From Cryobacterium sp. N22 (GTDB lineage Bacteria > Actinomycetota > Actinomycetes > Actinomycetales > Microbacteriaceae): DNA of 64,000 bases. The stretch spans positions 1-64,000 of the forward strand of contig NZ_PJJP01000034.1 in the NCBI RefSeq assembly GCF_002929555.1, read 5' to 3'. Made by a program: the position numbers and the translations under genes. Shown piece by piece: positions 1,350 through 14,980 of this stretch. The notes below the pieces were generated by a model. That model made no database searches. It saw only the letters and a program-made list of their open reading frames with translations, and was not told the DNA's origin. Numbering within the stretch: position 1 is the first letter of the stretch; every line of letters starts with the position of its first letter.

Positions 1350-2297
1350 ATGGATGTTCAGCGCCTCGAACTGCTCCGCGAACTGGCCGAACGCGGCAGC
1401 GTGACCGCCGTGGCCCGGGCCACCCACCGCACCCCCTCGGCGGTTTCGCAGCAGCTGAAGGTCCTCGAGCGCGAGGCCGGCCTGCCGCTCACCGAACGCA
1501 GCGGGCGCGGGCTCGTGCTCACCGACGCGGGCCGCGCGCTGGCCGCGAGCGCGACGGACATCGCGGTGGCCCTGGAGCGCGCCACCGCGGTCTGGGACAC
1601 CTTCCGCAACCGGGCCACCGGCGACGTGAGCCTGGTCACGTTTCCCACCGCCGGGCAGATGCTGCTGCCGGGGGCGCTGCAGGACCTCGCCGACCACGAC
1701 GGCCTGGCGGTGCACTGCACCGACATGGACCCGGAACTCAGCGATTTTCCCGCACTCACGAGCGAATACGACATCGTGCTCGCCCACAGCATGCGCGGGC
1801 AGCACACCTGGGGCGGACGCGGCCTCACCTCGGTGCCCCTGATGACGGAGCCGCTGGACGTCGGCCTGCCCACCGGCCACCGGCTGGCCGGCCGGGTGTC
1901 CCTCGGCGCGAGCGACGTGGTCGGCGAGACCTGGATCGGCGTGCCGGTCGGCTACCCGTTCGGACGCATCCTGCACGACATCGAGCTGCAGACCGGCAGC
2001 CGCGCCCGGGTGACCCAGCGGTTCGCGGACATGCGGCTGATCGAATCGTTCATCATGGCCGGTCTCGGCATCGCCCTCGTCCCCCGGTACACGTCCAGCG
2101 GCGATCAGCCGGGCCGGATGGTGCTCAAGCCATTGCGGGGACTCGACGCCGAACGGCAGATCGTGGCGCTGATGCGCCCCGACCGGGCCGAGCGCCTGGC
2201 CGTGCGCACCGTCGTCGAGGCGTTGCGCGCCCGGGCGGCTCAGGTGCAGGCCGAGCACGCGGCGGCGGCGGCTGAGCCGGAAATCACCGCCAGATAG
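1350..2297 (+). CDS. LysR-family transcriptional regulator
   Basis: 315 residues. The N-terminal winged helix-turn-helix (about residues 1-60, with SVTAVARATHRTPSAVSQQLKVLERE) is classical LysR. It is followed by a periplasmic-binding-like effector domain from about residue 85 that ends near 300. The C-terminus is Ala/Glu-rich. The ATG at 1350 is chosen because a TANNNT hexamer ends exactly six bases upstream and the HTH starts immediately. The target is unknown. Candidates are the divergent 40-aa membrane protein or the downstream membrane-protein and NodA-like genes, which follow in the same direction. Confidence 0.9.
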   Translation: MDVQRLELLRELAERGSVTAVARATHRTPSAVSQQLKVLEREAGLPLTERSGRGLVLTDAGRALAASATDIAVALERATAVWDTFRNRATGDVSLVTFPTAGQMLLPGALQDLADHDGLAVHCTDMDPELSDFPALTSEYDIVLAHSMRGQHTWGGRGLTSVPLMTEPLDVGLPTGHRLAGRVSLGASDVVGETWIGVPVGYPFGRILHDIELQTGSRARVTQRFADMRLIESFIMAGLGIALVPRYTSSGDQPGRMVLKPLRGLDAERQIVALMRPDRAERLAVRTVVEALRARAAQVQAEHAAAAAEPEITAR

Positions 2298-2300
2298 GGT
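2295..2300 (+). promoter_or_regulatory. -10 element built on the lysR stop codon
   Basis: TAGGGT begins with the TAG stop of lysR and ends seven bases before ATG 2308. It could drive a leaderless transcript of the membrane-protein gene. Confidence 0.4.
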
Positions 2301-2307
2301 GTGGGGA

Positions 2308-3165
2308 ATGACGCGACGATCACGCCGAGCCGACCGGGGCACTGTCGCCGCGCGTTCGAAGACCGCCCGCCAGGGGCTCTCCCCTTCCGAGCTCAGGGCT
2401 CTTCGCCGGAGTCACCGGAACGGTTCCCGCCCGGTTTCCCTGCCCGCCGCTCCCATCATTGTGGCGAGCGCCTCCGCCCTCGCGGTGATCGCGGCATGGG
2501 TGGTGCTCGTCATCCGGCCTGGGGCGCCGGACTTTGCTGTCTTCACCCCCGTCGCTGCGGCGATCCTGCTCCTGGGCTACCTGTTCCAGATCTGCTGGGC
2601 GGTCTATGCGCTGCCCACGGCGCCGCTCTACACCCGGCTGACGATCACCGGCCATACTCCACCCCGGCATTCCTGGACCGTCTGGGTACTGCCGGCGACA
2701 GTGCCGCTTCTCGTGCTTGCGGTGATCACCCCGTGGAGCCTCCCCACCGATTCGTTCGTGCCGGGCATGCCCGTGGCGGGCGTGCTGGGCATGCACCTGC
2801 TGATCTTCACGATCGCCGCATTGACCTCCGTGCTCGTCTGGATGCTCCTGATCGCACCCATCGGGCTTTTTGCGGCGTCGTTGCTGCCGCACCGCTCGCC
2901 CGGCGGAAGCGTGTTCGGCCGACTGTCACCGGGCGAACAGCGCTGGACTGCGGCGATCCCCTTCAGCATCGTGGGATTTGCCGTGTCGATGCCCAACGTC
3001 TCCGACGAGGGCGGTAACCGGATCAGCCGGATGGTCTACGACTTCTGGGAGCTCATCACCCTGACCGGGGAACCACGGGCCGTCATCGCCAGCTGGGTCT
3101 TCATCGGCCTGGTGGTGTTCTTCGTCGCCGGACTCGCCAGGTCCACGCGTCGCGCTGCCGGTTAG
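2308..3165 (+). CDS. Multi-pass membrane protein of unknown function
   Basis: About 285 residues from ATG 2308; a GTG at 2299 is possible but less likely. A basic, Arg/Ser-rich cytosolic N-terminus of about 45 residues precedes roughly six hydrophobic segments, arranged as pairs near residues 50-95, 125-145, 160-195, 215-235 and 260-280. I recognise no family motif. It lies ten bases after lysR and nine before the NodA-like gene in the same direction, so the three may be cotranscribed. A TANNNT formed by the lysR stop suggests an additional leaderless start. Confidence 0.75.
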   Translation: MTRRSRRADRGTVAARSKTARQGLSPSELRALRRSHRNGSRPVSLPAAPIIVASASALAVIAAWVVLVIRPGAPDFAVFTPVAAAILLLGYLFQICWAVYALPTAPLYTRLTITGHTPPRHSWTVWVLPATVPLLVLAVITPWSLPTDSFVPGMPVAGVLGMHLLIFTIAALTSVLVWMLLIAPIGLFAASLLPHRSPGGSVFGRLSPGEQRWTAAIPFSIVGFAVSMPNVSDEGGNRISRMVYDFWELITLTGEPRAVIASWVFIGLVVFFVAGLARSTRRAAG

Positions 3166-3174: not shown

Positions 3175-3729
3175 ATGGCTGACATCGAATGGACCCTACG
3201 CTGGGAGGCCGATCTCTCGGCCGACGACCACACCGCCCTCGCGGCCCTGTTCGCGCGTTACTTCCCGGAGGATCACGCCACCTTCACCGGCGCCCGCAGC
3301 TGGATGGGTGCCCGCCCTGAGGCCCGGGTGATCGCCTACGACAAGGGCCGGCCGGTCGCCCACCTCGGCTTCGTGCGGCGGATGCTGCGCCTGGAGTCCG
3401 GCGGGTCGCAACTGGTCGGCGATGTGGGCCTGGTCGGTGTCGATCCCGACTACCAGGGCACGGGCCTCGGTCGCCGGCTGCTCACCGAGGCGGCCGCGGC
3501 CCTGACCGGCCAGGGTCTGCCGTTCGGCTACCTCACCTGCGCCCCCGAGCTCGTCGCCTACTATGTCGGCGGCGGCTGGCAGCAGTCGCCCGGACAGGTG
3601 ACCCGCATGATCGATACCAAGATGCGCCCGGAGACCTTCACCGGCCCCGCGATGGTGCTCCCGGTGTCGGCGCCGTTCAGCGAGTGGCCGACCGGGCACA
3701 CGATCATCCGCGACGGCCTCGAGGTGTAG
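3175..3729 (+). CDS. NodA-like N-acyltransferase (GNAT fold)
   Basis: 184 residues matching, from memory, the rhizobial NodA family along its whole length. Matching blocks are LRWE near residue 9, DHTALA near 18, RSWMGARPEARVIAYD near 41, AHLG..RR near 62, VGDVGLVGVDPDYQG near 81, and the C-terminal VLPV...SEWPTG block. NodA transfers a fatty acyl chain to the deacetylated amino group of a chito-oligosaccharide. No nodB or nodC lies nearby, so the acceptor here is unknown. The length is close to NodA (about 196). The gene is convergent with the chelatase gene, 28 bases away. A generic GNAT acetyltransferase role remains possible. Confidence 0.8.
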   Translation: MADIEWTLRWEADLSADDHTALAALFARYFPEDHATFTGARSWMGARPEARVIAYDKGRPVAHLGFVRRMLRLESGGSQLVGDVGLVGVDPDYQGTGLGRRLLTEAAAALTGQGLPFGYLTCAPELVAYYVGGGWQQSPGQVTRMIDTKMRPETFTGPAMVLPVSAPFSEWPTGHTIIRDGLEV

Positions 3730-5102: not shown

Positions 5103-7775
5103 ATGACACTGAACACCCCCCTGCCGAAGACGATCGAATCAAACGGCACGCGCCGGGTCATCGTGATCGGAGGCGGTCCCGCCGCGCACAGGTTTGCCGA
5201 AGCCATGGTCGCCCGCGCCGAGGCCAACGGCGATTCCGCCCGGCCCGTGGACATCACCGTCATCGGCGAGGAGAATCACCTGCCCTACGACAGGGTGTCG
5301 CTCTCGCACCGCCTGAACGGTCCGGAGGACCTGACCCTGGGCGACCCGGTGTTCTGGCAGTCCGAGACCGTGCACTACCGCGGCGGCCGCCGCGTCACCG
5401 CCGTCGACCCCGCGGCCCAGACCGTCACCCTCGACAACGGTGACGCCCTCGTCTACGACGACCTGGTCTTCGCCACCGGATCGAGCGCCTTCGTTCCCCC
5501 GGTTCCCGGGGCCGACAAGGGGGTCGTCTACCGCACCATCGAAGACGTGGACTTCCTGGTCAGCGAGACCGCACGCCTGAAGGCGAAGTTCGGCCGGCCC
5601 GCGAACGTCACCGTGATCGGTGGCGGGTTGCTCGGACTCGAGGCCGCTGGTGGAGTGCAACGCCTCGGCGCGAACACCACGATCGTGGATGGCGCCACCT
5701 GGCTGATGCCCACCCAGCTCGACCAGGGTGCCGGCATGGCCCTCGGCCGCCTCATCGACGGCCAGGGCATCCACCTCGAACTCGGCCACCGCCCCACCGA
5801 GATCCTCACCGCCGAGACCGGCCAGGTGCTCGGGCTGACCCTCGACGACGGCCGCTCGCTCAATGCCGACCTGATCGTCTGGTCCATCGGCATCCGGGCC
5901 CGCGACGAACTCGCCCGCACCGCAGGCCTGGAGATCGGCCCGCGCGGCGGCATCGTGATCGGTGACGACTGCTCCAGCTCGGTGCCCGGCATCTGGGCCA
6001 TCGGCGAGGTCGCCAGCTACGACGGCCAGTGCATCGGGCTCGTCGCACCGGCGAATGCGATGGCCGAGGTCGTCGCCGACAGGCTCAACGGCGGCCAGGC
6101 CCTGTTCCCCGGCATCGACGACGCCACCAAGCTCAAGCTGTCCGGAGTGGAAGTGGCCAGCTTCGGCGACGCCTTCGCCACCGGCGAGAGGGCCCTCGAG
6201 GTCGTCTATGCCGACCCGGCCCGCGGCCTGTACCAGAAGGTCGTCGTCTCCAGCGATGCGAAAACCCTGCTCGGCGGCATCTTCGTCGGCGACGCGTCCC
6301 CGTTCCTGTCGCTGCGTCCGCTGCTCGGCCGCGAGCTGCCCGCCGAGCCCGGAGCGTACCTGTCCGCCTCCGGCGCCGAGCTGCCGTCCAGCTCTGACAT
6401 GCCCGACGACGCCCAGCTGTGCTCGTGCAACGACGTGTCGTTCGGCACCGTGCGCGCGGCCATCCGTGGTGACCATGGCGACCCGGTAACCGAGCTCGGC
6501 GCCCTGAAGGCCTGCACCAGGGCCGGTACCCAGTGCGGCTCCTGCGTGCCGCTGCTCAAGAAGGTGCTCGAAACCGAGCTGACCGCTGCCGGCCTCGAGA
6601 TCTCCAAGGCGCTCTGCGAGCACATCTCCATCAGCCGCAGCGAACTCTTCGAATCGGTGCGGGTGCTGCAGCTCACCTCGTTCGACCAGATCATGGACCG
6701 CTTCGGCACCGGCCTCGGCTGCGACGTCTGCAAGCCCACCATCGCCTCGATCCTGGCCTCGCAGTCCTCCGCGTATATTCTGGATGCCGGCCGTGGCGGC
6801 CTGCAGGACACCAACGACCGTGCCCTCGGGAACATGCAGAAGGACGGCAGCTACTCGGTGATCCCCCGCATCCCCGGCGGTGAGATCACCCCGGAGAAGC
6901 TCATCGTGATCGGCGAGGTCGCCGCCGAATTCAACCTGTACACCAAGATCACCGGCGGCCAGCGGATCGCCCTGTTCGGCGCCCGGCTCGACCAGCTGCC
7001 CGACATCTGGCGCACCCTCGTGGATGCCGGCTTCGAATCCGGCCAGGCCTACGGCAAGAGCCTGCGCACGGCGAAGTCGTGTGTCGGATCGGCCTGGTGC
7101 CGCTTCGGCGTGCAGGATTCCGTGGCGCTGGCGATCACGCTGGAAAACCGGTACCGCGGGTTGCGTTCGCCGCACAAATTCAAGATCGGGGTCTCCGGCT
7201 GCGCTCGCGAGTGCGCCGAAGCCCGCGCCAAGGACATCGGCGTCATCGCCACCGAACTCGGCTGGAACCTCTACGTCGGCGGCAACGGCGGCTTCCAGCC
7301 TGTTCACGCCGTGCTGCTCGCGAAGGACCTCGACGAGGACACCCTCGTGACGTACATCGACCGGTACCTGATGTACTACATCCGCACCGCCGACCGGGTG
7401 CAGCGCACCGCTCGCTGGCAGGAAGAGATCGCGGGCGGCATCGACCACGTGCGCGACGTGGTCGTGAACGACTCGCTGGGCATCGCCGCCGACCTCGAAG
7501 CGGCCATGGCCTCGCACATCGACGTGTACGAAGACGAGTGGGCGGCGACCCTCGCCGACCCGGAGCGGCTGCGCCGGTTCCGGCCGTTCGTGAACGCCGA
7601 CACCCCCGACCCGTCGCTCCTGCAGGTCATCGAGCGCGGCCAGCCGCGTCCGGCCCGGCCCGACGAGCGCGACGGCACCAGCGCCGCCGGCCCCGTGCAC
7701 CTGGCCGGCGTCACCATCCCGGTGCGGCGCGTCGGCGACGACATCCCGGTCGCCTCGGCGATGGGCGCGGAGTAG
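5103..7775 (+). CDS. nirB: Nitrite reductase (NADH) large subunit
   Basis: 890 residues. An N-terminal FAD/NAD pyridine-nucleotide disulfide oxidoreductase domain (VIVIGGGPAAHRFAE near residue 20, second dinucleotide motif VTVIGGGLLGLEAAG near 172) is followed by a BFD-type 2Fe-2S segment (CSCNDV, then CTRAGTQCGSC) near 445-480. Then come the sulfite/nitrite reductase ferredoxin-like half and the siroheme/4Fe-4S motif CVGSAWCRFG...SGCARECAEA near 660-705. It transfers electrons from NADH to siroheme for nitrite to ammonium. It is divergent from nirD and four bases upstream of the SUMT gene, so the siroheme genes are split between the two arms. Confidence 0.96.
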   Translation: MTLNTPLPKTIESNGTRRVIVIGGGPAAHRFAEAMVARAEANGDSARPVDITVIGEENHLPYDRVSLSHRLNGPEDLTLGDPVFWQSETVHYRGGRRVTAVDPAAQTVTLDNGDALVYDDLVFATGSSAFVPPVPGADKGVVYRTIEDVDFLVSETARLKAKFGRPANVTVIGGGLLGLEAAGGVQRLGANTTIVDGATWLMPTQLDQGAGMALGRLIDGQGIHLELGHRPTEILTAETGQVLGLTLDDGRSLNADLIVWSIGIRARDELARTAGLEIGPRGGIVIGDDCSSSVPGIWAIGEVASYDGQCIGLVAPANAMAEVVADRLNGGQALFPGIDDATKLKLSGVEVASFGDAFATGERALEVVYADPARGLYQKVVVSSDAKTLLGGIFVGDASPFLSLRPLLGRELPAEPGAYLSASGAELPSSSDMPDDAQLCSCNDVSFGTVRAAIRGDHGDPVTELGALKACTRAGTQCGSCVPLLKKVLETELTAAGLEISKALCEHISISRSELFESVRVLQLTSFDQIMDRFGTGLGCDVCKPTIASILASQSSAYILDAGRGGLQDTNDRALGNMQKDGSYSVIPRIPGGEITPEKLIVIGEVAAEFNLYTKITGGQRIALFGARLDQLPDIWRTLVDAGFESGQAYGKSLRTAKSCVGSAWCRFGVQDSVALAITLENRYRGLRSPHKFKIGVSGCARECAEARAKDIGVIATELGWNLYVGGNGGFQPVHAVLLAKDLDEDTLVTYIDRYLMYYIRTADRVQRTARWQEEIAGGIDHVRDVVVNDSLGIAADLEAAMASHIDVYEDEWAATLADPERLRRFRPFVNADTPDPSLLQVIERGQPRPARPDERDGTSAAGPVHLAGVTIPVRRVGDDIPVASAMGAE

Positions 7776-13844: not shown

Positions 13845-13915
13845 TATAAGGAAAAAGTGACCTTACAAGGACGGGATTGGACACCGGGTCCTTGTTTGCG
13901 GCCCTTGTCCTTATA
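13845..13915. promoter_or_regulatory. Nested inverted repeats upstream of the ROK gene
   Basis: Outer pair TATAAGGA (13845-13852) and TCCTTATA (13908-13915), inner pair CAAGGAC (13866-13872) and GTCCTTG (13888-13894). The four AAGGA/TCCTT half-sites in an AT-richer patch suggest cooperative binding, possibly autoregulation by the ROK protein. They lie between the ROK gene and the convergent end of the next gene. Confidence 0.45.
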
Positions 13916-13935
13916 GACGCGCGTCGCTGGTCAGT

Positions 13936-14343
13936 TCAGACGTAGTCGCCGGAGCCCTGCTCGGGGACTTCCCAACGACCTTCGGGGGTCCGCACGCCCC
14001 GCATGGAGCCGAACATCATGTCGGTCATCCCGGTCGGGTCACCGCCGCACCGCACGAAGTCCTCCCGCCGCCGCCGTCCGGACCGCAACGTGCTGCGAAC
14101 ACTCCACAGGAGCGCCAGGGACGCTCCGATCAGAGCGGCAACCAGGTAAATCCAGTCCTCGGCCGGGTCGAACAAGACGACAACGAAGGCAGCGGCGCTG
14201 GCCCCGGCCCCGATGGCGAGCACAAAGCCCACGACCATCGCTCCGCGCAGCGACGCGTCGCTCGGCCGGTCGATGTGCACGAACTTGTCCGGGTCGACGG
14301 GTGTGTACCCGCCCCTCACGCGGCGCCCGGTGGGCTCGGTCAT
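13936..14343 (-). CDS. Two-helix membrane protein of unknown function
   Basis: About 135 residues from ATG 14343 (MTEPTGRRVRGGYTPVDPDKF). An AAAGG site lies about 11 bases upstream. A hydrophilic N-terminus of 45 residues precedes two adjacent membrane helices (GAMVVGFVLAIGAGASAAAF and WIYLVAALIGASLALLW). A basic stretch and a hydrophilic C-terminus ending PEQGSGDYV follow. A longer frame back to 14463 overlaps the next gene's 3' end and is not preferred. I recognise no family. It is in the same direction as the P-loop kinase gene 70 bases upstream. Confidence 0.7.
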   Translation of the reverse strand: MTEPTGRRVRGGYTPVDPDKFVHIDRPSDASLRGAMVVGFVLAIGAGASAAAFVVVLFDPAEDWIYLVAALIGASLALLWSVRSTLRSGRRRREDFVRCGGDPTGMTDMMFGSMRGVRTPEGRWEVPEQGSGDYV

Positions 14344-14413
14344 CTCGTCACGGCCTTTCGAATGGAGGGACCACCCCATCCAAGCAGGAAACACGACGCA
14401 ATCAGGTCCAGCG

Positions 14414-14980
14414 TTAGCGCACGGCGTGAGCGAGAGCCCCGCCCAGCCACTGCTCGACCTCACGCTGCGATCGCAGCCTCACCACGACGAGGTGCGGATG
14501 CTGGAGTTCCACCAGCGGCACCCGCTCCTCGTAGTTCCGCCGGGTCGAGATCGCCCATCGCACGATGTGCTCACGGTTGGTGAGCAGCGTGCGGAACGGT
14601 GGCTCGACGTTGCCGTTCCACAACTCCTCCCGGCGAACCCGGCGACGGACGGTACGGCGGATCACCCGGGGAAGCGTCACTCGCAGGAATGGCAGATCGA
14701 GCCACACGAGCAGATCGGCACGCTCGGCAAGCACCTCACGGGCGGCGCTGTACTGCCATTCGGTCGTCCACGACTCCGCGGCGATGAAGGCTCGTACATC
14801 GTCGGCGAATTCTGGCCGAGGAACCCAATTCGGGCCGTGGAACAGCCCGTCGATCTCCGTGTGCGGACCCCCGGTGAGCACGGCGATTCGCGCGGCCAGG
14901 GTGGTCTTGCCCGTGCCGGACACCCCAGCGACAAGGACGCGGCGGGGACGATGAGGAAGGGCGCCGTCGGAGGAGAGCAT
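14414..14980 (-). CDS. P-loop kinase of the adenylate-kinase/FlaR-like type
   Basis: About 188 residues. Walker A VSGTGKTTLA is near residue 21, an IDGLFHGPNWV segment near 44 resembles the substrate lid of FlaR-type topology-modulation proteins, and LLVWLDLPF near 90 is the second strand. The C-terminal half is Arg-rich and includes VIRRTVRRRVRR. Such proteins are annotated as shikimate/adenylate-kinase-like with unknown substrate. ATG 14980 is chosen because TACACT plus six bases immediately precede it, giving leaderless geometry. A start nine codons upstream (15007) would lie above that -10. Confidence 0.8.
   Translation of the reverse strand: MLSSDGALPHRPRRVLVAGVSGTGKTTLAARIAVLTGGPHTEIDGLFHGPNWVPRPEFADDVRAFIAAESWTTEWQYSAAREVLAERADLLVWLDLPFLRVTLPRVIRRTVRRRVRREELWNGNVEPPFRTLLTNREHIVRWAISTRRNYEERVPLVELQHPHLVVVRLRSQREVEQWLGGALAHAVR

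Follow-up and report, generated by a model that had tools for sequence, protein, structure and literature searches.

The open reading frame at positions 3175..3729 on the forward strand of the window, i.e. the whole stretch of 64,000 nucleotides of Cryobacterium DNA that was analyzed, encodes a protein that, judged by its sequence, is a homologue of NodA but not NodA proper. NodA is the rhizobial enzyme that adds the fatty tail to nodulation signals, and Cryobacterium is a soil-and-ice actinobacterium. The function somewhat favored for the protein is that of a stand-alone actinobacterial NodA-like N-acetyltransferase with a presumed GNAT fold, which would depend on CoA, use Tyr130 as general acid and most likely act on a 2-amino-sugar or an aminoglycoside-like amine, without a role in Nod factor formation.

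The gene starts with ATG, includes its stop codon within the given coordinates and encodes 184 aa, annotated as a NodA-like GNAT N-acyltransferase on the basis of Pfam, alignments and Cryobacterium orthologues. The Pfam NodA profile PF02474 matches with 138.4 bits (cut-off 22; E 3e-40), whereby residues 2-183 align with profile positions 2-194 of 195. This bears out the end-to-end match to NodA claimed in an earlier note on this DNA, and every NodA motif quoted there is present in the open reading frame. NodA-type blocks are found toward the N-terminus (W6TLRWE11, R41SWMGARPE49, A62HLGFVRR69) and at the C-terminus (W171PTGHTIIRDGLEV184), and the blocks common to both groups can be written as WxxxWExxLxxDHxxL, RSWxGARPExR, AHxGxxRR and WPxGxxIxRxGxE. 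In a tblastn search of plasmids, relatives appeared only in records of nodulating genera and, where annotated, were nearly always NodA; identity to these NodA records amounts to ~30-35% where the full length matches. Viral and phage collections yielded no relatives. The NCBI NodA model TIGR04245, however, scores the Cryobacterium protein with just 99 bits, below its cut-off of 175. This score, together with a position outside the clade of rhizobial and Frankia NodA, sets the protein apart from NodA proper. Two general GNAT models of Pfam also exceed their cut-offs, Acetyltransf_9 with E 2.6e-9 and Acetyltransf_1 with E 7.1e-9, while such ordinary GNAT models hardly match rhizobial NodA at all. 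The earlier note had named alignment with ordinary GNATs and absence of NodA residues as the outcome that would speak against its assignment; alignment with ordinary GNATs is indeed observed, yet the protein retains the NodA signature blocks.

At the level of single residues, the protein carries the GNAT motif A (Q/R-x-x-G-x-G/A) as Q94-GTG-LG99, and alignment places Tyr130 at the position of the GNAT tyrosine that serves as general acid. Among the 12 Cryobacterium orthologues, the Q-x-x-G-x-G loop occurs in 11 and the tyrosine in all 12, and all NodA-like proteins aligned but one have the tyrosine. In contrast, true NodAs have V, I or F at this position (10/10; eight rhizobial and two Frankia proteins), and E replaces the loop Q in 8/8 rhizobial NodAs. 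Since both Frankia NodAs (n=2) retain Q-x-x-G-x-G, the loop alone does not separate NodA-like proteins from NodA; only the tyrosine does. The profile-profile alignment of the two groups has no gaps right around the tyrosine. Two insertions of NodA, in the GAFNAKPF region and in the V-x-V-R-S-T region, are missing from the NodA-like proteins in the alignment, and the C-terminus reads WPTGxxIIRDGLEV in Cryobacterium versus WPxGTxIxRNGPEL in true NodA.

A link to enzymes of known structure emerges from profile comparisons. When a profile built from 21 NodA-like proteins was searched against the PDB, AAC(2') ranked first, ahead of all other GNATs (5us1, E 5.8e-13), with a second AAC(2'), 1m44, at E 1e-7. 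The corresponding search with seven rhizobial NodAs gave no hit to a solved structure up to E 1. Profile-profile comparison gives 99.9% over 182 columns for NodA-like proteins versus NodA and 97.6% over 164 columns for NodA-like proteins versus AAC(2'), but merely 7% for NodA versus AAC(2') directly. Hence, the NodA-like family bridges NodA and AAC(2'). By profile, the Cryobacterium protein and AAC(2')-I (5us1, 1m44) belong to the same GNAT subgroup, have similar length and share an invariant A-H pair as well as the loop and the tyrosine position. Nevertheless, the NCBIfam AAC(2') model reaches just 20.3 bits on the Cryobacterium protein (cut-off 350), which also lies outside the separate, well supported AAC(2') clade and has other N- and C-terminal signatures. 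The predicted structure, calculated from an alignment of five close sequences, has an order of strands and helices that would fit a GNAT, but its confidence (mean pLDDT 40.9) is too low to establish the fold or to inspect a pocket.

In phylogenetic trees, the rhizobial and Frankia NodAs form a single clade with full support (100/100) on a long stem, from which the Cryobacterium protein is excluded, while the Cryobacterium NodA-like proteins constitute a clade of their own (100/99). In a first tree, the sister group of the NodA clade comprised Cryobacterium and a single further genus (95/85); in a tree with more sequences, the NodA clade grouped with Cryobacterium, with two further groups of Actinobacteria and with two proteins presumably from Streptomyces (90/81; 93/90 in a reduced set). 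This suggests that NodA may be nested inside the actinobacterial NodA-like group. AU tests did not reject trees in which NodA is the outgroup of its actinobacterial relatives (p 0.43 and 0.23), so that an origin of NodA within the group is not asserted firmly. Homologues of NodA in non-nodulating Actinobacteria were published in 2015 by Persson et al., who proposed an actinobacterial origin of nodA (PMC4447401). The trees agree with this proposal without proving it. The proteins of that study are of the same kind as the Cryobacterium protein, although its main text does not name Cryobacterium, nor do the catalytic residues and the link to AAC(2') appear to be treated there (PMC4447401).

The source genome (Cryobacterium, Microbacteriaceae; 4.06 Mb, 39 contigs) is rated 100% complete. 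Strong orthologues of the NodA-like protein (>130 bits) were found in 12 of 57 Cryobacterium genomes, plus one further distant match; the nearest named ones are from C. adonitolivorans and C. zongtaii (95%). Ten other Cryobacterium orthologues are 76-95% identical and one is more divergent. The dN/dS values of 0.13-0.31 for the orthologues aligned with the window gene indicate purifying selection and, together with the existence of these orthologues, that the gene is real. Beyond the genus, PF02474 matches occurred in 42 of 299 genomes (13 of 85 genera) in the family and in 22/396, 11/395 and 7/396 genomes in the order, class and phylum, respectively. The most divergent Cryobacterium orthologue (G409; L058, ~5720-6920) adjoins IS3-type transposase genes away from the usual pyrE-LysR site. 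In another Cryobacterium genome (G433; L215:2765-2830), a 22-residue C-terminal remnant with 77% identity is all that is left just behind the LysR gene, so that this copy appears to have been lost by deletion.

In the window, the gene is preceded by a LysR-type regulator (1350..2297, forward strand; Pfam LysR_substrate and HTH_1) and a predicted membrane protein (2299..3165, forward strand), whose stop lies 9 bases ahead of the NodA-like ATG; further neighbors are a CbiX-type chelatase, nirD, nirB and a tetrapyrrole methylase. The LysR, membrane protein and siroheme genes named in the earlier note are thus in place, but any meaning of these neighbors finds no support across the genus. The LysR gene is a core gene present in 54/57 Cryobacterium genomes, with or without the NodA-like gene. 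The membrane protein has no Pfam or NCBIfam match and no orthologue among the other 56 Cryobacterium genomes, and is not considered a partner. In 11 of the 12 Cryobacterium genomes, the NodA-like gene lies downstream of LysR on the same strand, beside pyrE. Five of these 11 have no called gene between the two (gaps of ~48-156 bases), while in the remaining genomes the gap is filled differently, to judge from the sequences: in the source genome by the membrane protein, and elsewhere by what look like a LysE-type transporter gene next to a phosphotransferase-like one, a quinone-oxidoreductase-like gene or two genes on the opposite strand. Downstream, some genomes continue with the siroheme/nirBD block, others directly with a sugar ABC transporter. 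Both a common operon of the NodA-like gene with its two upstream neighbors and a functional link to siroheme/nirBD were therefore ruled out, and the neighbors do not inform on function. In Cryobacterium, the NodA-like gene is an accessory gene without fixed partner genes.

In other genera of the Microbacteriaceae, the gene often resides at a conserved location between purD-purC and katA-fur, either as purD-purC-GNAT-NodA-like-katA-fur or with a glyoxalase gene in place of the GNAT gene (names read from the sequences). No glycan context is seen there, and these housekeeping neighbors give no hint of the substrate. At five loci of other Microbacteriaceae (L074, L075, L076, L081 and L082), the NodA-like gene is paired in tandem with another GNAT-like gene, followed in L074-L076 by a kynureninase-like gene. 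The best context clue found comes from outside the Cryobacterium genome. Two Streptomyces-type NodA-like proteins (132 and 120 bits) are encoded directly downstream of a gene for a NodS-like methyltransferase (L213:6034-7741 in G1617 and L214:6584-7718 in G1683), NodS being the N-methyltransferase of Nod factors. The NodS match of this gene is above the Pfam cut-off (28.7 bits versus 24) but far below that of NCBI (27 bits versus 300). The NodS-like gene is broken in G1683 but intact in G1617, and in the latter genome a GT2 glycosyltransferase is encoded two genes downstream. This pairing hints at N-methylation and N-acylation of a shared amine.

For the Cryobacterium protein, we infer the use of CoA, acetyl as donor group and an aminosugar as acceptor. 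Acetyl-CoA, or another short acyl-CoA, would be bound via the Q94-x-x-G-x-G99 loop and brought to the primary amino group of a small acceptor in the cytosol, whereupon Tyr130 could act as general acid and protonate the leaving CoA thiolate. NodA modifies a terminal glucosamine at its 2-amine, and AAC(2') modifies an aminosugar ring at the 2'-amine; by analogy with both, the acceptor would most likely be a 2-amino-sugar or an aminoglycoside-like amine. The lack of nodulation partners, together with the retained features of an ordinary acetyl-CoA enzyme, makes an acetyltransferase of this aminosugar type the probable reading.

The Pfam assignment itself would fit a true NodA that makes lipochitooligosaccharides with nodB and nodC located elsewhere in the genome, but this is extremely improbable. 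In the whole source genome, NodC is matched with at most 45 bits, against a cut-off of 550, and NodB with at most 44 bits, against one of 240, and comparably weak matches occur in 13 (NodC) and 10 (NodB) of 14 control genomes. The absence of nodBC noted earlier for the surroundings of the gene thus extends to the complete genome, for which the earlier note had proposed a search; a hidden nodBC pair is ruled out, and the non-nodulation role suggested there gains support. Besides lying outside the NodA clade, the protein also scores far below the true NodAs of two genomes (310 bits in G1013 and 305 bits in G852) that, from their NodA and NodC, are presumably of Frankia type. In the former, NodA shares its contig with a NodC of 625 bits, above the cut-off. 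This contig harbors two NodA copies (L147:7483-8058 and 13888-14457), the second of which contains an in-frame TGA. Unlinked to the NodA-like gene, contig C31 of the source genome (L146:5990-12635) carries a row of genes for a PgaC/IcaA-like GT2 glycosyltransferase, for two polysaccharide deacetylases that contain carbohydrate-binding domains, and for a GH10 hydrolase, which possibly represent an exopolysaccharide locus.

A fatty acyl donor would be compatible with the CoA loop, as GNATs can use long acyl-CoA. The protein could then lipidate an own-cell glycan, for example an aminosugar of the cell wall or an exopolysaccharide, and thereby resemble NodA on another sugar. Such a role would accord with the full-length similarity to NodA including both terminal blocks, with the generic glycosyltransferase and the two deacetylases on the other contig, and with the tentative association of actinobacterial nodA homologues with cell-wall genes (Persson et al. 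2015, PMC4447401). Still, it is rather doubtful, as the tyrosine lost from the acyl-transferring NodAs is kept, the nearest solved relatives are acetyltransferases, and no cell-wall genes were recognized at the Cryobacterium loci of a gene that occurs in only 12 of 57 species. The acyl-chain transfer envisaged in the earlier note is accordingly not favored, while an antibiotic or a small amine, which that note named as further acceptors, may still be the substrate. Alternatively, the enzyme may acetylate and detoxify a non-sugar amine such as an amino-acid-like antibiotic, a polyamine or an arylalkylamine. Its patchy distribution, variable neighborhood and loss are reminiscent of resistance and detoxification GNATs, and general GNAT models match; this option is nonetheless unlikely, because profile comparison puts aminosugar enzymes, and not GNATs for amino acids or polyamines, closest to it. 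A CoA-dependent acetyltransferase that acts on a small amine, perhaps an aminosugar, remains the preferred reading.

As far as found, the residue contrast, the AAC(2') bridge and the Streptomyces relatives beside a NodS-like gene are new. Conceivably, though this is put forward tentatively, the actinobacterial NodA-like proteins are survivors of the ancestral NodA type, in which case an AAC(2')-like N-acetyltransferase that used CoA and acted on aminosugars would have been turned into the acyl-ACP-dependent NodA via loss of the tyrosine and reshaping of the cofactor loop. If true, this would explain where NodA came from. While the window gene by itself is an ordinary accessory enzyme, the connection of NodA with AAC(2') is the part worth following. 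NodA, whose own sequence finds no solved structure and whose ancestry is unclear, is tied by the NodA-like family to structurally known aminosugar acetyltransferases, which provides a concrete model of how NodA folds and works and opens the origin of the key step in Nod factor synthesis to testing.
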